A stretch of DNA of 64,000 nucleotides from a virus: positions 1 through 64,000 of IMG/VR virus record IMGVR_UViG_3300023179_000025. One strand, 5' to 3'. The first letter of the stretch is position 1. Each line of letters starts with the position of its first letter. Made by a program: the position numbers and the translations under genes. Under the pieces are notes generated by a model. The model saw nothing but the letters and a program-made list of their open reading frames with translations, was not told the DNA's origin and searched no databases. Shown here one piece after another: positions 45,676 to 59,342 of this stretch.

Positions 45676-46713
45676 ATGCGTGACATTCAAATACACAGAA
45701 TTAATAAAAAATTAGAAAATACCGATAAAGTAATCATAGCTTTGGGATGTAGTTTTGCTGAAGGACAAGGGGCAATATATGACTCGTTATATGATAACTA
45801 TAAGTGGCATTATCAAGGTATGGGTAAAGGTATGCTTGTTACTGTATCAGACAGCGAAAAAAAAGAAATTATGTATCAATATCCTGACAAAGTAACTGTA
45901 GATAAAGCCTCAGGAAAACTTGATTTTTCAATTATGGAAATAGAAAATAGTTTTTCACACGTATTAGCTGAAAAATACTTTGATAATGAATACGTGGCAA
46001 TAAACATGGGAATAAGAGGTACAGGAAATCGTGGACAAATAAAAGAATTATATTTTCGACCTGAAATCAATTGGCATAGAGTAAAAAAAATTATTGTTGT
46101 TTATTGTGTAAGTGGAATTGAACGATTTGATTTTGTAAATGATTTATGGGACACGCATTACCATTGGAAAGCAATGTGGCCAAAAAAGGAAATTGATGAA
46201 AATGACAGAAAACCTTTATGGGAAGGTTATGGGCAAACTGTATATAGTGAAAAGCAAGCTATAATTGAACAAATTGCTAACGTACAAGAACTTTTAACTT
46301 GGTGTAAACTGCACAATGCAAGTTTAATAATTACTCCAGGTTTTGAACAACGATATACAAAAGAGTATTTTAATGAAAATTTAAATACAATAGTTAATAG
46401 GAATTCTAGACAAGAAATAATTGAAAACTCATTTTTAAAAAATATTTTAGATGTTAAAAAAGTATCACATGATTACCTTTCACTATTATGGCCTTGGAAT
46501 AATATGTTTTATCCAGATGATAATGATACATTTATACGTTTATGTATGTCTCAAGAAAATGACGAGATAAAAAATAGTACAGATTGGTTTTGGCAATTTT
46601 TAGGTAATAGATCCCCTAAAGGATATATTACGGGATGCGCTCATCCAGGCGAAAAAGGTCATGATTTATTTGCAAAACATTTGTATTTTCATATTTTAAA
46701 AAATAACCTATAA
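45676..46713 (+). CDS. SGNH/GDSL-hydrolase-like protein, copy 1
   Basis: A 345-aa protein with IIALGCSFAEGQGA near the N-terminus (Ser in the position of the SGNH nucleophile, block I) and AHPGEKGHDLFAKHLY at the C-terminus, where a His preceded two residues earlier by a small residue matches block V only loosely (the usual Asp is missing). GIRGTGNRGQ could be the Gly/Asn oxyanion-hole segment. SGNH enzymes add or remove acetyl groups on glycans. Two related genes follow directly. One base separates it from its neighbours on each side. Assignment to the fold is moderate and activity unproven. Confidence 0.55.
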   Translation: MRDIQIHRINKKLENTDKVIIALGCSFAEGQGAIYDSLYDNYKWHYQGMGKGMLVTVSDSEKKEIMYQYPDKVTVDKASGKLDFSIMEIENSFSHVLAEKYFDNEYVAINMGIRGTGNRGQIKELYFRPEINWHRVKKIIVVYCVSGIERFDFVNDLWDTHYHWKAMWPKKEIDENDRKPLWEGYGQTVYSEKQAIIEQIANVQELLTWCKLHNASLIITPGFEQRYTKEYFNENLNTIVNRNSRQEIIENSFLKNILDVKKVSHDYLSLLWPWNNMFYPDDNDTFIRLCMSQENDEIKNSTDWFWQFLGNRSPKGYITGCAHPGEKGHDLFAKHLYFHILKNNL

Positions 46714-50237: not shown

Positions 50238-51719
50238 ATGCAATATATAGGAATTTCAAGTCATTTTCATGACGCTGCAATAACTCTTTTGTCCAATAAT
50301 GGGGATATATTATTTGCAGGACATAGTGAAAGATATAGTAAAACTAAACATGATTCACTATTAAATATTGATTTAATTAATGATCTGTTATACTATGACA
50401 ACAAATATGATAAGTTTTCAATTCATTATTATGAAAGACCTTTTATAACACAATTAAGACAAATTAGAGCAGGTCAAAAACTTGATTTTGTTACAACTAA
50501 AAGTCGTATAGGCAAACCAATTTTACAAATGTTAGGCAATCCTGATATAAAAAATTATAATCACCATTTAAGTCATGCAGCCGCGGGTTTTCAAACCAGT
50601 CTATTTGATAATGCTACAGTTGTTATAATAGATGCAATTGGAGAATTCGATACAATATCAATTTATGATGCTTATTATAATGATAAAGGATATGCAAAGT
50701 ATAAAAAACTATATAGTCAAAAATATCCTAATAGCATTGGATTATTTTATAGTGCAATGACTAAAAGAGTTGGATTGAAACCTTTAGATGAGGAATATAT
50801 TTTAATGGGCATGTCAGCTTATGGGATAGATAAACATAGTGGGGAAATGTTAAAATTCTTTAATGATATAAAAAATATTGAAATGAATACTAATTTGCAT
50901 ATAGGGGTAGATGATAATTTTTTATTTGGTGCTGATTTAATGGATATTGCATGTAGTACTCAAGTGGTTGTTGAGCAGTTGATTGAAATAGTTATGAGTA
51001 AAGCAAAATTACTAGGACGAAGTAATAATCTAGTTTATGGAGGAGGCGTGGCTTTAAATTGTTTAGCAAACAGGAAATTAGGAAATTTTTTTGATAAAAT
51101 TTGGATAATGCCGAATCCTGGTGATGCAGGGAGTAGTCTAGGTGCTGCTGCATTAGGATATGGAAAAAGATTAAAATGGGAAAATGCATTTTTAGGATAT
51201 GATATTAAAGGTGTGTATCCAATAGATAATATTCTTAAAGAACTAAACAGTAATAAAATAGTAGGTGTTGCCAATGGGCGTGCAGAATTTGGACCAAGAG
51301 CCTTAGGTAATCGAAGTTTATTAGCTGATCCACGCGGTAATTTAATTAAGGATAAAGTTAACGAGATTAAGCGTAGACAAAAATTTAGACCATTTGCTCC
51401 TGTGATACTTGAGGAATATGTAGATGAGTATTTTGTAATGCCAAAAGGATTTAGTATCAGTCCATATATGCAAGTAGTTGCAAAATGTAAACAACCTGAA
51501 TTATTACCAGCTATTATACATCATGATGGTACGAGTAGGGTACAAACAGTAGGTAAGGACAATACGGGAATAAGAAAACTTTTAGAAAAATGGTATGATT
51601 TAACAAAATGTCCTTTGTTATTAAATACATCACTAAACATACGCGGTGAACCTATGGTTAATGATAAAAAGGATGCAGTTAGATTTGAAAATCTGTACGG
51701 AGTTAAAGTTTTTTCATAA
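50238..51719 (+). CDS. Carbamoyltransferase, NodU/TobZ/CmcH family
   Basis: A 493-aa carbamoyltransferase. The N-terminal Kae1-like half has SHFHDAAITLL, NHHLSHAAAGF (metal-binding His pair) and IIDAIGEFDT; LMGMSAYG and VYGGGVALNCLANRKL follow. The C-terminal half has GRAEFGPRALGNRSLLADPR and RQKFRPFAPVILEEY, signatures of the family. These enzymes move a carbamoyl group from carbamoyl phosphate through a carbamoyl-adenylate to a hydroxyl of a sugar or antibiotic. Here the acceptor is probably a sugar built by the neighbouring genes. The length is slightly short of the bacterial norm (about 550-600 aa). No ribosome-binding site is obvious. Confidence 0.92.
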   Translation: MQYIGISSHFHDAAITLLSNNGDILFAGHSERYSKTKHDSLLNIDLINDLLYYDNKYDKFSIHYYERPFITQLRQIRAGQKLDFVTTKSRIGKPILQMLGNPDIKNYNHHLSHAAAGFQTSLFDNATVVIIDAIGEFDTISIYDAYYNDKGYAKYKKLYSQKYPNSIGLFYSAMTKRVGLKPLDEEYILMGMSAYGIDKHSGEMLKFFNDIKNIEMNTNLHIGVDDNFLFGADLMDIACSTQVVVEQLIEIVMSKAKLLGRSNNLVYGGGVALNCLANRKLGNFFDKIWIMPNPGDAGSSLGAAALGYGKRLKWENAFLGYDIKGVYPIDNILKELNSNKIVGVANGRAEFGPRALGNRSLLADPRGNLIKDKVNEIKRRQKFRPFAPVILEEYVDEYFVMPKGFSISPYMQVVAKCKQPELLPAIIHHDGTSRVQTVGKDNTGIRKLLEKWYDLTKCPLLLNTSLNIRGEPMVNDKKDAVRFENLYGVKVFS

Positions 51720-51727
51720 GTAGACTT

Positions 51728-54700
51728 ATGATTAGAGATGTTTTTTATTATGGCAAGAAGCCTAACATTCATCCAAGAGAAAGATTTGCTAAAAACCTTG
51801 AAGAAGCAAGAGAGTTATCAAATACAGAGCATTTTTGGATAATAAATGAATTTTGTGATTATAAAAATTTTGATTGGGATTTCGATTACGAATTTTTACC
51901 AGACGAGGATGTATGGGCGCAGGATCATATAAATATATGGCCAAGTTTATATCAAAAAGATAGTGGAACATGGTTAGTTCCAAATAATAATAGTTTAGTG
52001 AGAATTTACAGAAATGATGTACAACCTGTAGATAGAAAAATAATTAAAGATAATTGGATTATTTATTCACAAATAGACAGTAAAAAATTTGATTTAAAAT
52101 GGCATCCTGATCCACTTGATCCGCCCTTTATTTATGTATGGGGGAATAAATTTATACCAGCAGAACTGCAACCTACAATAGAATATTATACACCTAGTGC
52201 TGTTGAACGAAAATACATGGGTGAAGTTGAGGTATTACCACAAATGGAACGTTGGGTAATGGTTCAAGATATAACTGAGGATTTTGATTTAACTTGGAGA
52301 CCTGATCCAAGAGAACCTCCGTACATTTACGTTTGGGGAAACAAATATATACCTGGAGAGTTACAATCTACAATTGAATATCATACTCCTAATGCAATCA
52401 ATAAAAAATATATGGGTAATGCACCTGTTTTACCTGATAAAAATTGGAAAATTATACAGGAAATTGATAAAACTAAATTTGATTTATCTTGGAGACCTGA
52501 TCCACGTGAACCTCCATACATTTATACTTGGGGAAATAAGTTTATTCCTGCTGAAATAATGCCTACAATTCAATACTTATGTCCAAACGCTACTGAACAT
52601 AAGTACATGCAAGAACCATTAGAGGTATTACCTGAATATGAAAAATGGGTAGAAGTACAGGCTATCGATAAAACTAAATTTGATTTATCTTGGAGACCTG
52701 ATCCACGTGAACCTCCATATATTTACGTTTGGGGAAACAAATATATACCTGGTGAATTATTACCTACATTGCAATATAATTGTATAGGAGCAAAAGAATA
52801 CAAATATATGGGTGATGTTGAGGTTATTCCAGAACACGAAAAATGGGTAGAAGTACAGGCTATCGACAAAACAAAATTTGATTTATCTTGGAGACCTGAT
52901 CCACGTGAACCTCCATACATTTATACTTGGGGAAATAAATATATACCTGGTGAATTAATGCCAACTTTAGAATATAGATGTATTGGAGCAACAGAACGCA
53001 AATATATGGGTGATGTTGAGGTTATTCCAGAACACGAAAAATGGGTCGAAATTCAACTAATTGATAAGACAACATTTGACATGACATGGAGACCTGATCC
53101 AAGAGAACCTCCATATATTTACGTTTGGGGGAATAAGTTTATTCCTGCAGAATTAATGTCAACTTTAGAATATAGATGTATTGGAGCAAAAGAATACAAA
53201 TATATGGGTGATGTTGAGGTTATTCCAGAACACGATAAATGGGTCGAAGTGCAGTTAATTGATAAGACAAAATTTGACATGACATGGAGACCTGATCCAA
53301 GAGAACCTCCATATATTTACGTTTGGGGGAATAAGTTTATTCCTGCAGAATTAATGCCAACTTTAGAATATAGATGTATTGGAGCCACTGAGCGAAAATA
53401 TATGGGAAATATTGATGTATTGCCTGAGTTTAATAGATGGGTCGAAGTTCAAACTATTGATAAGACTAAATTTGATATGACATGGAGACCTGATCCAAGA
53501 GAACCACCTTATATCTATGTATGGGGAAACAAATATATACCAGGCGAATTAAAATCAACAATTGAATACCATACCCCTAATAGTACTGAACGTAAGTATA
53601 TGGGAGATGTTGATGTTTTACCAGAAACAGAACGTTGGAATATTGTTCAAAAACCTAAGGATTTTGATTTAACATGGAGACCTGACCCAAAAGAACCACC
53701 ATACATTTATGTATGGGGCAATAAATATATACCTGGGGAGATACAATCTACAATAGAATATCATACACCTGACGCTCAAGAAATAAAATATATGGGTGAC
53801 ATAGAAGTTGTACCATATTATGAACATTGGAATATTGTGCAAGAAGTCGGTGATGATTTTGATCTTTGTTGGAGACCTGATCCAAGAGAACCACCATACA
53901 TTTATGTATGGGGGAACAACTATATACCTGGCGAGGTTAAAGCTACAATTGAATATCATACACCTAATAGTATTGAACGCAAGTATATGGGTATTGCCAG
54001 TGTTAAACCTGACAAAAATTGGAAAATTACACAGGATATTGATATTGAAAAATTTGATTTATGTTGGAGACCTGATCCTAGGGAGCCTGCATACATTTAT
54101 ACTTGGGGTAATAAGTATGTAAGTGCTGAACTAGTACCAACCATTGAATATTATACTCCTAACGCCACTGAACGTAAGTATATGGGTGAAGTAGACGTTA
54201 TTCCTGAATTTGATCGTTGGGTAGAAGTACAACCAATTGACAAATCAACATTTGATATGACATGGAGACCTGATCCAAGAGAACCACCATACATTTATGT
54301 ATGGGGTAATAAACATATTCCCGCCGAACTAAAACCCACGCTAGAATATTATACTCCAAACGCAACAGATAGAAAATATATGGGTAATGTTGAAGTTTTA
54401 CCAATAAACGAAAATTGGAAAATTACCCAAGAAGCTATAAACTTTGATTACACATGGAGACCGGACCCAAGAGAACCTGATTATATCTATGTATGGGGTA
54501 ACAAGTATATACCTGGCGAGTTAAAACCTACAATTGAATACATTTGTCCTAACGCTATTGAAAAAAAGTATATGGGGAATGTTGAAGTAGCCTCTGAATG
54601 GGACAAATATAGAATACTGATCCCTGTTGATAAGAATAGTTTTGATTTTAGTTGGAGACCTGATCCAAGAGAGCCTCCCTATATTTACGTTTGGGGCAAT

Positions 54701-57556
54701 CAAACTAATAGTGCCACTATAGAACCTACGATAGAATATCATTGCACAGGTGCTGTTGAACGCAAATACATGGTTGACAGAGTAGCTACAACGTTACCAG
54801 ATATTGAAAAATTTAAAATTTTAATTTCAGTAAAAGATTTTGATTTTAGTTGGAGACCAGATCCTCATAGTCCTCCTTATATCTACGTGTTTGGTAACCA
54901 ATGGCATGATGCAATGACTGAACCTACAGTAGAATATCATGTACCTGGTGCGAAAGAAAAAAAATATATAACAGATATTATAGCGAAGGTAAGTCCTACA
55001 CAGGAAAATTGGAAAACACTTATCCCTGTTGTAGATTTTGATTATAGCTGGAGGCCTAACCCACACAGTACTCCATACATTTATGTATTTGGAAATCAAT
55101 GGAATCCTATTGAATTAGAGCATACAGTTGAATACCATACACCTGGGGCAAAAGACTACAAATATATAACAGATATTGTAGCAAATCTTAAACCAACTAA
55201 CACTGAAAAACATTGGAAAAGGTTGTTACCTGTTGAAAGTTTTGATTATAGTTGGAAACCTGATCCAAGAGAACCTGCATTAATATATGTATTTGGAAAT
55301 AAATGGAATGATTCTAAGACTGAGCCTACTATTGAATATCATTGTGAAGGTGCTACAGAACGAAAATACTTAGATTTTCCTGTAGCTAAACCCACAGTTG
55401 AATTTAAATATTGGTCCATATCAAATAATTACGATCTAGAATCATTTGATTTTAGTTGGAGACCTAATCCGCATAGTCCACCACAAATTTATCAATGGGA
55501 AAATAATGGTCCAAGATATAATGTACCAGGTGCTACAGACGTTGTATTAATGAAAAGAATTGATACTGACTATGCACCGAAAATTAATAAATATTTTATT
55601 AAAACTAACCTTACCGATTTGATTAGTGAACATCCAAATGAAGTATTTTGGGCTTTAAATCCTGATCTAAATTATGATAAGTTTGACTTTACATGGAAGC
55701 CTAATAAAGAAAATTTTACACACATAAATGTTTTTGGTAATGAATATAGTAAAAATACCCACACATATTATATAAACGGGCCAATGTATAACTTGGGATA
55801 TAGGCAATATAATTATATAAATAATCAAAAATTTAGTGGGGATACAAACCTTTCAATGTTTTTTATTGATAGGGGTAATGATTATAGTCAAAAAAGATTC
55901 GATGCACTTAAAACAAAGTACCCACAATTACAAAAAACAAGATTTCTAAATTCTTGGGTAGATACTATTAATCGTTGCACTCAAAAATCTTATACAAAGT
56001 TCCTTTGGGTTTTAAGTAGCGAATTAGATTATAGTGAATTTGAGTTTGACTTTTATCCTAGTCCATGGCAAGAAAAAATGGTACATGTGTTTGGTACACA
56101 ATGGAGTCATTGGGGTAATACATACCTAATAAACAAGGAAACATTTGCAAATGATACTAAGTATATAAAAATTATTGAACATTTGTCATGTTTAAATTTT
56201 GTCAAAACTAAACGTGCAAAAGCTGTGGACATTATTTATGATATTGTCTATATTGACCACAAAAATACAAAAGTGGATAGTAATAAATTTAAATATGTGA
56301 TTGAGTATGAGGATAATTATTATAAAACTTTTAAAAAATTAATTGATGTTTTACCTAAAAAGAAAGAGCATTATATTTGGATAATAAGTTCAATCTGTGA
56401 TTATACAAACTTTAATTTTACTTACATTTGTGACCCATTTGCTAAAGAACAATTACACGTTTTTCCAAGCGATAAACAAAAATATGGTGACACATTTTTT
56501 GTAGACGTTAATAATTTACGTGAACAAATTGAAAATATTGAAAAACTTAAAAATTTTACAAAAATAAATTTTAATAATCATCAAACAGTAAAAAGATTAG
56601 ATTGTCCTAAATTTGTAATAGAGGATGATACTTTTGTAAATTCAATTAATGTTGAATTTAATTTTCCCTATGCAAATTTTGTAACGGTAGATAATTGTAC
56701 ATTAAATGTTGTGGACGATGATCCAATCAATTTGTGGGAAGAAGAAACAAAAAATATTATAGTGCAAAGTACAGGTAATACAAATATTATTATACCCAAA
56801 GAAGTAAAGAAATATGTAAAAAAAGAATTGTATGATTATCCTTATATCACTAAACGTGATAAATTACAATCAAGTTTTCCATTAGATATTGTTTTTTTAA
56901 GTAATGGTGAAAAAAATGCTGATGCAAACTATGAACATCTATTATCTGTAATAAAAAATAAACCAAATAGAGTAATAAGAGTTGATGGTATTAATGGTAG
57001 AAAAAATGCAAATTACGCAGTTGCAGATATTAGTAATACTCCTTGGATGTTTGTAGTATTTGCAAAGTTAAAAGTAAAAGAAAACTTTGATTGGGATTGG
57101 CAACCTGATAGAATGCAATTACCAAAACATTATATTTTTTATGCTAGGAATCCTGTTAATGGTTTGTTTTACGGACACCAAGCAATGATAGCATGGAATA
57201 AAAATATAGTTTTACAAACACAAGGAGTAGACTTAGATTTTACAATGGAAGGTAACCATGAAGTTGTTAAGATAGATAGCGGAACACCTTATTATAATAC
57301 AGATGAATATAGCACATGGAGGACTGCTTTTAGAGAGGTTATAAAATTGAAGTATTACAACAATAAAGAAAGTCAGCATCGTTTAAAAGTATGGTCAAGT
57401 ATAGCAGAAGGTGATTTTGCCCAATTTAGTTTACAAGGAGCAAAACATGCTATAGATTACTTTAATGCGGTTGATGGTAATATTGATAAATTAAAATTAA
57501 GTTACGAATGGGCTTGGTGTAAAGAATATTTTCTTAAAAAGTATGATAGAATTTAA
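51728..57556 (+). CDS. Large repeat protein, 1942 aa, with C-terminal transferase-like domain
   Basis: The protein consists of about 18 good and several decayed copies of a 65-residue unit, W-R-P-D-P-R-E-P-P-Y-I-Y-V-W-G-N-K, then an E-Y segment, K-Y-M-G and a linker with W-V-E-V-Q (residues about 120-1275). Copies 3-7 are nearly identical at the DNA level; later ones drift (VFGNQW), then decay (FDFYPSPW, FTYICDPF) up to about residue 1610. The last 250 residues (from LDIVFLSNGEKNADANYEHL) match the 320-aa protein at 37535. There is no signal peptide or membrane segment. Trp- and Pro-rich regular repeats suggest a solenoid or beads-on-a-string scaffold. Function unknown; secretion, virion display or a multi-site scaffold for the enzymes are possibilities. 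Confidence 0.8.
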   Translation: MIRDVFYYGKKPNIHPRERFAKNLEEARELSNTEHFWIINEFCDYKNFDWDFDYEFLPDEDVWAQDHINIWPSLYQKDSGTWLVPNNNSLVRIYRNDVQPVDRKIIKDNWIIYSQIDSKKFDLKWHPDPLDPPFIYVWGNKFIPAELQPTIEYYTPSAVERKYMGEVEVLPQMERWVMVQDITEDFDLTWRPDPREPPYIYVWGNKYIPGELQSTIEYHTPNAINKKYMGNAPVLPDKNWKIIQEIDKTKFDLSWRPDPREPPYIYTWGNKFIPAEIMPTIQYLCPNATEHKYMQEPLEVLPEYEKWVEVQAIDKTKFDLSWRPDPREPPYIYVWGNKYIPGELLPTLQYNCIGAKEYKYMGDVEVIPEHEKWVEVQAIDKTKFDLSWRPDPREPPYIYTWGNKYIPGELMPTLEYRCIGATERKYMGDVEVIPEHEKWVEIQLIDKTTFDMTWRPDPREPPYIYVWGNKFIPAELMSTLEYRCIGAKEYKYMGDVEVIPEHDKWVEVQLIDKTKFDMTWRPDPREPPYIYVWGNKFIPAELMPTLEYRCIGATERKYMGNIDVLPEFNRWVEVQTIDKTKFDMTWRPDPREPPYIYVWGNKYIPGELKSTIEYHTPNSTERKYMGDVDVLPETERWNIVQKPKDFDLTWRPDPKEPPYIYVWGNKYIPGEIQSTIEYHTPDAQEIKYMGDIEVVPYYEHWNIVQEVGDDFDLCWRPDPREPPYIYVWGNNYIPGEVKATIEYHTPNSIERKYMGIASVKPDKNWKITQDIDIEKFDLCWRPDPREPAYIYTWGNKYVSAELVPTIEYYTPNATERKYMGEVDVIPEFDRWVEVQPIDKSTFDMTWRPDPREPPYIYVWGNKHIPAELKPTLEYYTPNATDRKYMGNVEVLPINENWKITQEAINFDYTWRPDPREPDYIYVWGNKYIPGELKPTIEYICPNAIEKKYMGNVEVASEWDKYRILIPVDKNSFDFSWRPDPREPPYIYVWGNQTNSATIEPTIEYHCTGAVERKYMVDRVATTLPDIEKFKILISVKDFDFSWRPDPHSPPYIYVFGNQWHDAMTEPTVEYHVPGAKEKKYITDIIAKVSPTQENWKTLIPVVDFDYSWRPNPHSTPYIYVFGNQWNPIELEHTVEYHTPGAKDYKYITDIVANLKPTNTEKHWKRLLPVESFDYSWKPDPREPALIYVFGNKWNDSKTEPTIEYHCEGATERKYLDFPVAKPTVEFKYWSISNNYDLESFDFSWRPNPHSPPQIYQWENNGPRYNVPGATDVVLMKRIDTDYAPKINKYFIKTNLTDLISEHPNEVFWALNPDLNYDKFDFTWKPNKENFTHINVFGNEYSKNTHTYYINGPMYNLGYRQYNYINNQKFSGDTNLSMFFIDRGNDYSQKRFDALKTKYPQLQKTRFLNSWVDTINRCTQKSYTKFLWVLSSELDYSEFEFDFYPSPWQEKMVHVFGTQWSHWGNTYLINKETFANDTKYIKIIEHLSCLNFVKTKRAKAVDIIYDIVYIDHKNTKVDSNKFKYVIEYEDNYYKTFKKLIDVLPKKKEHYIWIISSICDYTNFNFTYICDPFAKEQLHVFPSDKQKYGDTFFVDVNNLREQIENIEKLKNFTKINFNNHQTVKRLDCPKFVIEDDTFVNSINVEFNFPYANFVTVDNCTLNVVDDDPINLWEEETKNIIVQSTGNTNIIIPKEVKKYVKKELYDYPYITKRDKLQSSFPLDIVFLSNGEKNADANYEHLLSVIKNKPNRVIRVDGINGRKNANYAVADISNTPWMFVVFAKLKVKENFDWDWQPDRMQLPKHYIFYARNPVNGLFYGHQAMIAWNKNIVLQTQGVDLDFTMEGNHEVVKIDSGTPYYNTDEYSTWRTAFREVIKLKYYNNKESQHRLKVWSSIAEGDFAQFSLQGAKHAIDYFNAVDGNIDKLKLSYEWAWCKEYFLKKYDRI
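52088..55560 (+). repeat. About 18 tandem ~195-bp coding repeats
   Basis: Each unit encodes about 65 residues starting F-D-x-x-W-R-P-D-P. Units between about 52640 and 53420 share long identical DNA stretches, for example around the sequences encoding VIPEHEKWVE, while outer units differ at many bases. This gradient indicates recent expansion from the middle by unequal recombination, and it is a place where short-read assembly could collapse or expand copies. Confidence 0.9.
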
Positions 57557-57561
57557 AAAAT

Positions 57562-57696
57562 ATGTTATTACTTTTTTCATCTCATTTAAATCATTCTATT
57601 TTACAAAATTTATCACAGGAAGAAAGATTTGTAGTTGCTTTTAATTTTTTTATGAAGGGAAATATAGGTACTAATGAATGGATGTTAAAACTATAA
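57562..57696 (+). pseudogene. C-terminal remnant of a 2OG-Fe(II) oxygenase
   Basis: A 44-codon frame reads LLLFSSHLNHSILQN and then LSQEERFVVAFNFFMKGNIG. This matches the C-terminal end of phage 2OG-Fe(II) oxygenases (TIGR02466-like), where F-P-S-x-L-x-H carries the distal iron-binding His and the E-R-x-x-x-x-F-N segment the 2-oxoglutarate-binding Arg. Everything upstream, including the His-x-Asp motif, is missing: the frame begins six bases after the repeat-protein stop. I read it as a broken gene end. It has no ribosome-binding site and its stop overlaps the late box at 57692. Confidence 0.5.
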
Positions 57697-57699
57697 ATA
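57692..57699 (+). promoter_or_regulatory. T4-type late promoter box TATAAATA before the tmRNA
   Basis: A perfect CTATAAATA. The expected start point, about 57705, falls at the 5' end of the tmRNA acceptor piece, giving an acceptor piece of about 70 nucleotides. This makes phage late control of the tmRNA likely. Confidence 0.6.
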
Positions 57700-57704
57700 A
57701 AGAA

Positions 57705-57774
57705 TAAAGAATTGTTGTATGAAGTTGAAGGAAAAGTGCTGCGGACGCGGGTTCGACTCCCGCCTGGTCCACCA
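57705..57774 (+). ncRNA. ssrA: tmRNA acceptor piece (3' tRNA-like half)
   Basis: Bases 57742-57774 closely match the 3' end of E. coli tmRNA: CGGAC, then the T stem-loop GCGGG-TTCGACT-CCCGC (57747-57763), then acceptor strand CTGGTCC, discriminator A and encoded CCA (57772-57774). U at 57768 pairs with G at 58003 to form the G3-U70 pair that alanyl-tRNA synthetase requires. The 5' limit is estimated from the late box and is approximate. On its own this segment cannot be a tRNA, since no D or anticodon arm precedes it. Confidence 0.92.
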
Positions 57775-57813
57775 TAAGGAAATATCCATAAGGAAATATC
57801 CATAAGGAAATAT
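57772..57813 (+). repeat. Three tandem copies of CCATAAGGAAATAT
   Basis: Three perfect 14-bp units run from the tmRNA CCA to the ATG of the small gene at 57814. Each contains AAGGA; the last one is correctly placed as a ribosome-binding site (seven bases before ATG). The first unit begins with the tmRNA CCA end itself, and each later unit recreates a CCA. Confidence 0.95.
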
Positions 57814-57999
57814 ATGAGAGTTACAAACACAGAATCAATTCAACTTACACCTAAAGATGGTAAATGGTATGCTATGCCAAATGACCAATACATTAGATGG
57901 AATTTTGATGAGAGAATTTGGGATTATATGATCACAAAAGAAGGGGACACAAAGCCTAGATTTTGGGATCAATTACCGGATGGTACGGTTTCCTTATGA
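57814..57999 (+). CDS. 61-aa protein encoded inside the tmRNA intervening segment
   Basis: ATG at 57814 follows AAGGA by seven bases; 61 codons end with TGA at 57997-57999, one base before the first base of the tmRNA coding piece. The protein is polar with several Trp residues (GKWYAMPNDQYIRWNFDERI, then PRFWDQLPDG) and resembles small conserved phage proteins rather than random translation. If pre-tmRNA is cut at the CCA and at 58001, this message is exactly the released spacer. Alternatively it is translated from the uncut precursor. Function unknown. Confidence 0.6.
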   Translation: MRVTNTESIQLTPKDGKWYAMPNDQYIRWNFDERIWDYMITKEGDTKPRFWDQLPDGTVSL

Positions 58000-58000
58000 T

Positions 58001-58195
58001 GGGCCAGACATGGTTTCGACGGGGTAAAGAGTACGGATATGGACAACACGGTAGGCGAAGACCGCAAATCTAGCAAAGCAAATAGACGCAAATGACGACT
58101 ATTTTTATCAGGATCTCAAGCTAGCCGCTTGAGCCTGACGGGGTAGGAAAGACCTTGTAACCAAACAAACCTAGGCTCTACGGAGCCTATTTTAC
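58001..58195 (+). ncRNA. ssrA: tmRNA coding piece, tag ANDDYFYQDLKLAA
   Basis: It begins GGGCCAGACATGGTTTCGAC followed by GGGG, the conserved 5' tRNA-like part of tmRNA. AAATAGACGCAAATGACGAC precedes and opens the reading frame exactly as in E. coli (TAG-x-C-GCA). The resume codon GCA is at 58088. The tag ANDDYFYQDLKLAA ends with TGA at 58130-58132, inside hairpin CTCAAG-CTAGCCG-CTTGAG (58115-58133), the usual P5 position. The tag ends in Leu-Ala-Ala, the ClpXP-recognised ending. The piece closes with a hairpin and T run at 58172-58193. Confidence 0.93.
58172..58193 (+). terminator. Hairpin with T run closing the tmRNA coding piece
   Basis: TAGGCTC (58172-58178), loop TACG, GAGCCTA (58183-58189), then TTTT. 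It fits an intrinsic terminator or the last helix of the coding piece protecting its 3' end. Confidence 0.65.
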
Positions 58196-58205
58196 CCAAT
58201 ATCTA

Positions 58206-58233
58206 TAGACATTGCGTAAAAAAGTGTTATAGT
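58206..58233 (+). promoter_or_regulatory. Sigma70-like promoter of the porin gene
   Basis: TAGACA (58206-58211), 16-bp spacer, TATAGT (58228-58233). The predicted start near 58240 leaves a leader of about 90 bases. TAAGGA at 58317-58322 is the ribosome-binding site of the porin. Confidence 0.55.
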
Positions 58234-58328: not shown

Positions 58329-59342
58329 ATGAAAAAACTTTTATTAGCGTCACTTATTGCAGGTGCTACATCAGTTGCAGTTGCACAAACAACTGTATAT
58401 GGTTTGGCTGATGCATATTATGGACATCAAACAAATGCAAAAAATAGCAATCAAGTAAATGCTGGTGGTATGACAACTAGTTACATTGGTATCAGTGCAT
58501 CTGAAAAAATTGGCGATCTACAAGCTAGAGCAGTATTAGAGACATTTTTGCGTCCTGATACCGCACAACAAGGTCGTTTTAATAATGATACTTTTTATGC
58601 AAGAAACGCATATGTTGCACTATCATCTAAAGCAGGTGAAGTACAACTTGGTCGTGTAACTACACCATACTTTATCTCAACAATTGCATTTAATGCATTA
58701 GGTGATAGCTTTGTATTCAGTCCAACAGTAACATCAAGGGTTGGAGTTAATAACTTTAATCTTGGTGGTGGTGGAAGTGATACAGGATGGAATAACTCAG
58801 TTTTAGTAAAAACTAGTATGGCTGGTTTAGCACTTACAGGTGTCTATAGTGCAGGAGTTACTGATGATAGCAACGCAAAATTATCAGGTAAAAGCGTTGG
58901 CGCCATGTACTTTCAAGGTCCAATTGGTTTAACTGCAACTTGGCAAGACGTAGAGCAAGGCGCAGGTAAAGCAAGTATGTCATCAACAATCGTTGGTGCA
59001 AGTTATGATCTTAAAGTAGCAAAGGTGTTTGCTCAACATGAGACTGTTAAAAACAGCGATAATGTAACAAAAGAAGATAGAGGTTATACAGTAGGCGCAA
59101 CAATGCCAATGGGTAAAAATACTCTAATGGCAAGCTATGCAAAGAAAGACCATGATTTCACAAATGGTAGAACTGCTGAAACAGCAAGCTGGGCAGTAGG
59201 TGTAAGCCATGCACTAAGCAAGCGTACTGATTTATATGCTGCTGTACGTGATACAAATTATACTAATGACGGTTTAAATAGAACAAATGCAAACTTCGTC
59301 GATACCCGTGTAACAGGTGTAGGCGTACGTCATCGTTTTTAA
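58329..59342 (+). CDS. Outer-membrane trimeric porin (betaproteobacterial type)
   Basis: A 337-aa precursor. Residues 1-20 are a signal peptide (MKKLLLASLIAGATSVAVAQ, cut after Ala-x-Ala/Gln). The mature protein opens TTVYGLADAYYGH and contains GEVQLGRVTTPYF, near the constriction loop region, and ends VTGVGVRHRF with the C-terminal Phe read by the BAM complex. This layout is that of general porins of Burkholderiales and relatives (Porin_4). The gene is complete, with its own promoter, ribosome-binding site and terminator, a typical moron. Likely roles are replacing or masking the phage receptor against superinfection, or changing nutrient uptake of infected cells. A virion role is unlikely given the signal peptide. 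Confidence 0.93.
   Translation: MKKLLLASLIAGATSVAVAQTTVYGLADAYYGHQTNAKNSNQVNAGGMTTSYIGISASEKIGDLQARAVLETFLRPDTAQQGRFNNDTFYARNAYVALSSKAGEVQLGRVTTPYFISTIAFNALGDSFVFSPTVTSRVGVNNFNLGGGGSDTGWNNSVLVKTSMAGLALTGVYSAGVTDDSNAKLSGKSVGAMYFQGPIGLTATWQDVEQGAGKASMSSTIVGASYDLKVAKVFAQHETVKNSDNVTKEDRGYTVGATMPMGKNTLMASYAKKDHDFTNGRTAETASWAVGVSHALSKRTDLYAAVRDTNYTNDGLNRTNANFVDTRVTGVGVRHRF

Follow-up and report, generated by a model that had tools for sequence, protein, structure and literature searches.

A phage permuted tmRNA gene with a predicted small protein gene nested in its intervening segment

Introduction

It is commonly held that tmRNA precursors are non-coding except for the tag. Two-piece tmRNAs of phages were described in 2022 in the paper on phage Melnitz, in which 53 of 133 phage tmRNA structures are of the two-piece kind (PMC9004378), and a tmRNA survey of 2025 includes 79 phage sequences (PMC11915505). 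A pattern scan of IMG/VR carried out in the present work returned at least 62 distinct permuted tmRNAs. That phages can carry permuted tmRNAs is already known, and the novelty implied in a preliminary description of the locus discussed here is not supported.

The locus lies in a stretch of 64,000 nucleotides (positions 1 to 64,000 of IMG/VR virus record IMGVR_UViG_3300023179_000025, which has 137,248 bases); this whole stretch is called the window below. The preliminary description left out a protein gene situated between the two tmRNA pieces, in the spacer (IVS) of the permuted gene, and it is this gene, together with similar genes in other phages, that is presented here.

Identity and parts of the permuted tmRNA

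The locus encodes a permuted tmRNA, as had been proposed from the sequence. ARAGORN calls it at 57682-58223 with the tag peptide ANDDYFYQDLKLAA, and 57713-58132 fits the Rfam model tmRNA_permuted (RF04321) at 114.9 bits, the cut-off of that model being 47 (E=1.1e-21). Among the older subtype models beta_tmRNA (RF01850) is the top scorer for the window (57671-58194, E=3.8e-18 in a 1-kb search), and because its 61.9 bits stay under the gathering score of 84 the window tmRNA is not filed under the beta_tmRNA subtype. The order of the gene, with the 3' acceptor piece before the 5' piece, is given both by the sequence and by an automatic detector. That the locus stems from a prophage or from a host was considered and rejected, as the window is in a virus record and the tmRNA groups with phages. 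The parts are as follows.

57713-57774, plus strand: 3' (tRNA-like acceptor) piece with a P2 strand, the T arm, CTGGTCC and CCA; the RF04321 match starts at 57713
57775-58000, plus strand: IVS of 226 nt, predicted to lie outside the mature two-piece RNA, which holds the protein gene
58001-58194, plus strand: 5' (mRNA-like) piece with GGGCCAG, the D-loop region, the resume codon, the tag frame and a downstream pseudoknot region (ARAGORN, RF04321, beta_tmRNA)
58088-58132, plus strand: reading frame of the tag ANDDYFYQDLKLAA with its stop, called by ARAGORN; the tag peptide is also present in other viral contigs
58172-58189, plus strand: 3'-terminal hairpin TAGGCTCTACGGAGCCTA, followed by TTTT, the last helix of the beta-type model

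All structural elements named in the preliminary description were recovered at the coordinates it gave. The acceptor strand CTGGTCC (57764-57770) pairs at 7 of 7 positions with GGGCCAG (58001-58007), the stem contains the G3-U70 pair (G58003-U57768), and the acceptor strand is followed by A and then by an encoded CCA which ends at 57774. The T arm of the 3' piece is perfect (stem GCGGG/CCCGC, loop TTCGACT) and P2 is partial, TGTTG at 57713-57717 being paired with CAACA at 58044-58048 and mismatches occurring deeper in the helix. The tag frame, with its resume codon, runs from GCA at 58088 to TGA at 58130-58132 and ends in a proteolysis signal. The same tag peptide pattern was matched in 33 other viral contigs by a search pattern that itself demanded identical amino acids, and the copies of the tag vary synonymously.

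The RNA ends at 57774 and 58001 are predicted ones, consistent with the model, and the mature RNA would be composed of two pieces without the IVS. The hairpin at 58172-58189 with its TTTT is a probable terminator, although a terminator scan picked it up for the minus strand alone.

The intervening segment and ORF61

The IVS measures 226 nt here versus 3-42 nt in 16 bacterial relatives (one order sampled), and no IVS ORF of such kind was found in those 16 bacterial genes. It is because of this IVS that the RF04321 match, 420 bases long, exceeds the lengths seen in bacteria of the phylum of the controls (169-332 bases). The tag starts at position 407 within the gene, compared with 182-229 in a wider bacterial set of 43 loci. 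Three features are found in the IVS or at its borders.

57773-57813, plus strand: tandem repeat of three CATAAGGAAATAT(C) units; unit 1 is a strand of the closing helix (predicted pairing) and unit 3 the Shine-Dalgarno sequence of ORF61
57814-57999, plus strand: ORF61, 61 codons, MRVTNTESIQLTPKDGKWYAMPNDQYIRWNFDERIWDYMITKEGDTKPRFWDQLPDGTVSL, with the stop TGA at 57997-57999 (codon usage, shuffles)
57989-57998, plus strand: TTTCCTTATG, predicted to be the closing helix's 3' strand; it gives the last codons of ORF61 (V-S-L-stop) and pairs with CATAAGGAAA at 57773-57782

The Shine-Dalgarno AAGGA (57804-57808) is placed 5 bases upstream of the ATG at 57814, and the TGA ends 1 base short of the 5' piece (58001). 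The window displays the pattern of an IVS-nested gene, that is a Shine-Dalgarno with an early ATG, an ORF which fills the IVS and a stop at the boundary of the 5' piece. The ATG is at IVS offset 39 owing to the tandem repeat at the IVS start, and due to the same repeat the strict detection rule applied to other phages (ATG offset 8-16) skips the window's own ORF61; the rule was left unwidened.

With a codon-usage model trained on genes of this same phage, ORF61 obtains a log-odds of +20.8 bits in frame and negative values in the other five frames, compared with 22.2 +/- 7.8 for the phage's own genes and -42.6 off-frame. An ORF of this length appeared in 78 of 20,000 shuffled IVSs. No homologue of ORF61 above threshold was found in IMG/VR (back-translated patterns), by phage tblastn, in PHROGs, in Pfam or in the related records, and selection on ORF61 itself is for this reason not measurable; AlphaFold without an alignment gave a poor model (pLDDT 53), which was set aside. 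The prediction that ORF61 is coding is well supported by its codon usage and architecture.

Genome context

Two neighbouring features frame the tmRNA.

57692-57699, plus strand: TATAAATA, a box resembling a T4-type late promoter, found by sequence scan about 20 nt upstream of the tmRNA precursor
58329-59342, plus strand: porin gene (Porin_4), immediately 3' of the tmRNA

The T4-type late context claimed earlier is plausible in view of the box at 57692. Over the window as a whole the octamer shows no enrichment (19 found versus 25 expected). Of its 15 plus-strand copies, five lie in intergenic sequence, which makes up 2.7% of the window, and the distance from these to the following start is 11-26 nt. 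The window also contains a single ORF of 7256 codons (10504-32274, about one sixth of the whole record), a gene for a NolO-type carbamoyltransferase (50238-51719, PHROG 1601) and, just upstream of the tmRNA, a gene at 51728-57556 for a protein of 1942 residues with repeats around WRPDPREPPYIYVWGNKYIPGEL.

The porin has a signal-peptide-like N-terminus. Its relatives occur at 18 viral loci with 68-77% identity, most of the records tested have a permuted tmRNA, and the association of tmRNA and porin recurs in related phages. Since no porin relatives were found in genome_contigs, the host can be suggested only indirectly, by the beta-type tmRNA and Porin_4. No gene for SmpB (PF01668) was found in this record or in 14 related ones, records which may be fragments, with positive results in the controls, so host SmpB would be needed. 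The earlier suggestion that the phage brings its own ribosome rescue is in this way upheld for the tmRNA and not for its protein partner.

Nested genes in related and cultured phages

Fourteen related records were picked by the porin of this phage group or, in two cases, by tmRNA or tag patterns, and in 13 of the 14 RF04321 has a match over its cut-off. The spacers of these tmRNAs are filled in different ways: an 83-codon ORF for a two-helix membrane protein in L461 and L462, a 33-codon membrane ORF in L456 and L458, an ORF beginning with MLKYTQ in L457, 24 nt in L451 and a structured sequence without ORF in L083 and L463. A syntenic sister of the window, L498, has the same upstream gene of 1942 residues (73% over the best stretch) and a nearly identical tag, ANDDYFYQEVKLAA, and its spacer codes for the unrelated MESVKKFIDKQLNKIDIDRQRELIIKQACE... 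protein. In a tree of the tmRNA core the window groups with L461, L457 and L163 (support 100/97) and phage tmRNAs are apart from bacterial ones, many branches of the tree being weak. As related tmRNAs carry differing spacer contents, it can be said that the RNA has been kept and the nested gene replaced.

For a wider view the IVS was extracted from each permuted tmRNA found by the detector among the loci; the detector requires an encoded CC and misses some genes. Phage IVSs are of two kinds, short or structured without an ORF, or filled by an ORF. Structured IVSs with no ORF are present in many phages, among them L083 and the isolates X1, DLP_6, SM1 and XacN1, which means that the tmRNA can do without a protein. 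In the ORF-filled kind the ATG is 9-14 nt into the IVS, behind AAGGA or AAAGA, and the stop precedes the 5' piece by either 1 nt or 9-13 nt. These ORFs make up about 20 unrelated families of 24-83 codons in dozens of phages, and roughly half of the families have a hydrophobic membrane-spanning stretch according to hydropathy. One of the ORFs, with 73 codons (L242), is a PGDYG protein (Pfam 27.8 bits versus a cut-off of 27) with tblastn relatives in 415 phage records, the matches listed being annotated as hypothetical proteins. When L242 and 11 other loci with IVS ORFs were re-checked by Rfam, all were full-length tmRNA_permuted with 86.9-138.6 bits.

The boundary stop is not universal, because the ORFs of Melnitz, L498, L163 and the CPSC family enter the 5' piece. 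In L007, L066, L081, L087, L163 and L498 the IVS ORF stays open across the boundary of the 5' piece; as the frame runs into the tmRNA body, these proteins would end in tmRNA-encoded residues. The computer-called IVS ORFs of L023, L035, L053 and L451 were not accepted as families, being readings into the tmRNA body. Unusually long or non-canonical viral tags are predicted by ARAGORN for L029, L043, L046, L049 and L067 (for example GNTFAKMATLGLTREASVVAA).

In Melnitz, a cultured phage growing on Methylophilales strain H5P1 (MZ577097), the annotated SsrA feature (45984-46436) encloses GGAGAAGTAT-ATG together with an ORF, MFKWLSKTRLVVITRDYFRERNRKADAKIPKYL..., which runs into the 5' piece. This ORF is identical in all four isolates and is without gene annotation; its codon signal is positive but weaker (7.7 bits versus 14.5 +/- 7.2 for own genes). 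No IVS ORF of this type was seen in the permuted tmRNAs of X1, DLP_6, SM1, XacN1, UF_RH6 and Mosig. The first five of these (L445, L446, L448, L449 and L450), cultured phages of Xanthomonas, Stenotrophomonas and Pseudomonas, have a permuted tmRNA without a tmRNA annotation in the features shown. Their Xanthomonas, Stenotrophomonas and Pseudomonas hosts have a one-piece tmRNA.

Proposed model and the closing helix

The explanation preferred here, and considered highly probable, is a permuted tmRNA gene with an IVS that now functions as a slot for a small protein gene, a common precursor serving both. A single precursor RNA would be transcribed, probably late in infection, with the acceptor piece first, then the Shine-Dalgarno with the complete small ORF, and then the tag-coding piece. 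Cuts after CCA (57774) and before GGG (58001) would yield the two-piece tmRNA, which together with host SmpB would rescue stalled ribosomes and attach the tag ANDDYFYQDLKLAA, while the precursor itself or the excised spacer would serve as mRNA for the 61-residue protein. Transcription from 57692, the sites of cleavage, translation, and a competition of folding with translation are predictions of this model.

The ends of most phage IVSs pair better with each other than with mismatched partners (means -13.6 versus -7.7 kcal/mol), and in most families the 5' strand of this closing helix includes the Shine-Dalgarno. The helix of the IVS ends would extend the acceptor stem. Because it contains the Shine-Dalgarno, a competition between precursor folding and ORF translation is expected: the precursor fold should block initiation, and a ribosome at the ORF stop should open the helix beside the RNase P site. 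In the families with a boundary stop, unrelated proteins end in VSL, SL, LL or FL since the 3' strand of the helix forms the last codons of the ORF. In the window, where the repeat unit occurs three times, closure of the helix and binding of the ribosome may be performed by separate copies; in a folding model the Shine-Dalgarno of copy 1 is unpaired at 0.00 and those of copies 2 and 3 at about 0.5. The arrangement suggests, without proving, that translation and tmRNA maturation are coupled.

A refinement of the slot model, compatible with it, is a translational switch, in which the helix would hide the Shine-Dalgarno, and terminating ribosomes would open the helix, set the rate of RNase P cleavage and so couple protein output with maturation. 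The location of the Shine-Dalgarno within the closing helix in most families points to such a switch, as do unrelated ORFs whose stop is 1 nt ahead of the 5' piece and whose last codons (VSL, LL, SL, FL) are set by the helix. Nevertheless, some families stop 9-13 nt earlier or continue into the 5' piece, and the helix, which bacterial IVSs also have, may be a mere ancestral leader-trailer pairing; the switch is put forward as a tentative proposal. Equally tentative is the broader view that phages have made the permuted tmRNA spacer an exchangeable gene slot with an RNA switch, by which protein synthesis and tmRNA maturation would control each other.

Chance frames, selection and decay

A rival reading takes the locus for a usual phage permuted tmRNA in which the spacer is long and the ORF is a chance frame derived from the A-rich closing helix. 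The helix does supply AAGGA near the start and TGA (TTATGA) near the end, many IVSs are without an ORF and ORF61 has no homologue. Against this, in a sample picked blind to the IVS a full-length ORF was present in 19 of 39 long IVSs versus 2.0 expected, and under the strict rule, with near-copies removed, in 12 of 41 versus 0.64 expected from full shuffles. When the IVS ends were fixed and only the interior was shuffled the expectation rose to 2.5, with a maximum of 7 in 500 shuffles, still below the 12 observed; all these shuffle tests depend on the detector.

Selection was estimated from ten disjoint pairs of IVS ORFs of several families, after removal of the start codon and of the final five codons with their helix sequence. 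The pooled pN/pS is 0.22 (p=4e-16; 65 synonymous and 56 nonsynonymous differences), and in the two remaining frames the ratio for these ten pairs is 1.18 and 3.50. In L085/L220, the best single pair, all 10 changes are synonymous. These comparisons show that phage IVS ORFs, taken as a class, behave as coding genes under purifying selection. Since the selection is confined to one frame, the codon usage of ORF61 fits the genes of this phage and one IVS ORF belongs to a known family (PGDYG), a chance frame is judged improbable. That the tmRNA is a decaying copy broken by an inserted phage gene, for which the imperfect P2 of the window and the beta_tmRNA score under its gathering score might be cited, is hardly credible, as the acceptor and the T arm, like the G-U pair and the tag frame, are intact, other contigs retain this tag, RF04321 exceeds its cut-off in all but one of the 14 related records, and tmRNAs with an ORF reach scores (up to 138.6 bits) as high as those without one.

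Significance and comparison with known systems

If tmRNA precursors are also mRNAs, annotated "SsrA" features hide genes, Melnitz being one case. If the model is true, tmRNA maturation gains a possible link to translation, and permutation may benefit the phage as a protected site for small genes. The slot also gives a list of uncharacterised small phage proteins.

No published report of protein genes in permuted tmRNA spacers was found in a search that covered mainly freely available papers, and the accessible part of the tmRNA survey reports no protein gene in a permuted IVS (PMC11915505). Protein genes nested in the IVS of phage tmRNAs appear to be previously unreported. Methylophilales phage Melnitz resembles the window in being a T4-like phage with a permuted tmRNA and an ORF with Shine-Dalgarno and ATG in the IVS (MFKWLSK...). 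In its paper (PMC9004378) and GenBank record SsrA alone is described, and no ORF; its tmRNA was placed with alphaproteobacteria by its authors (PMC9004378), whereas the window fits best, among the older subtype models, with beta_tmRNA. The betaproteobacterial permuted tmRNA (RF01850/RF04321) has the gene order, acceptor pairing, IVS closing helix and tag position in common with the window, but its IVS has 3-42 nt and no ORF. Additional IVS sequence, in the form of a tRNA gene or a repeat, is known from permuted tmRNAs as single reported cases (PMC11915505). The same survey describes group I intron tmRNA genes, which are similar in that a protein gene is found inside a segment removed from the tmRNA precursor, there a self-splicing intron in the T loop with a homing endonuclease (PMC11915505). 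In the phage case, in contrast, the protein genes occupy the IVS of a permuted gene and encode many small proteins that are unrelated to one another.
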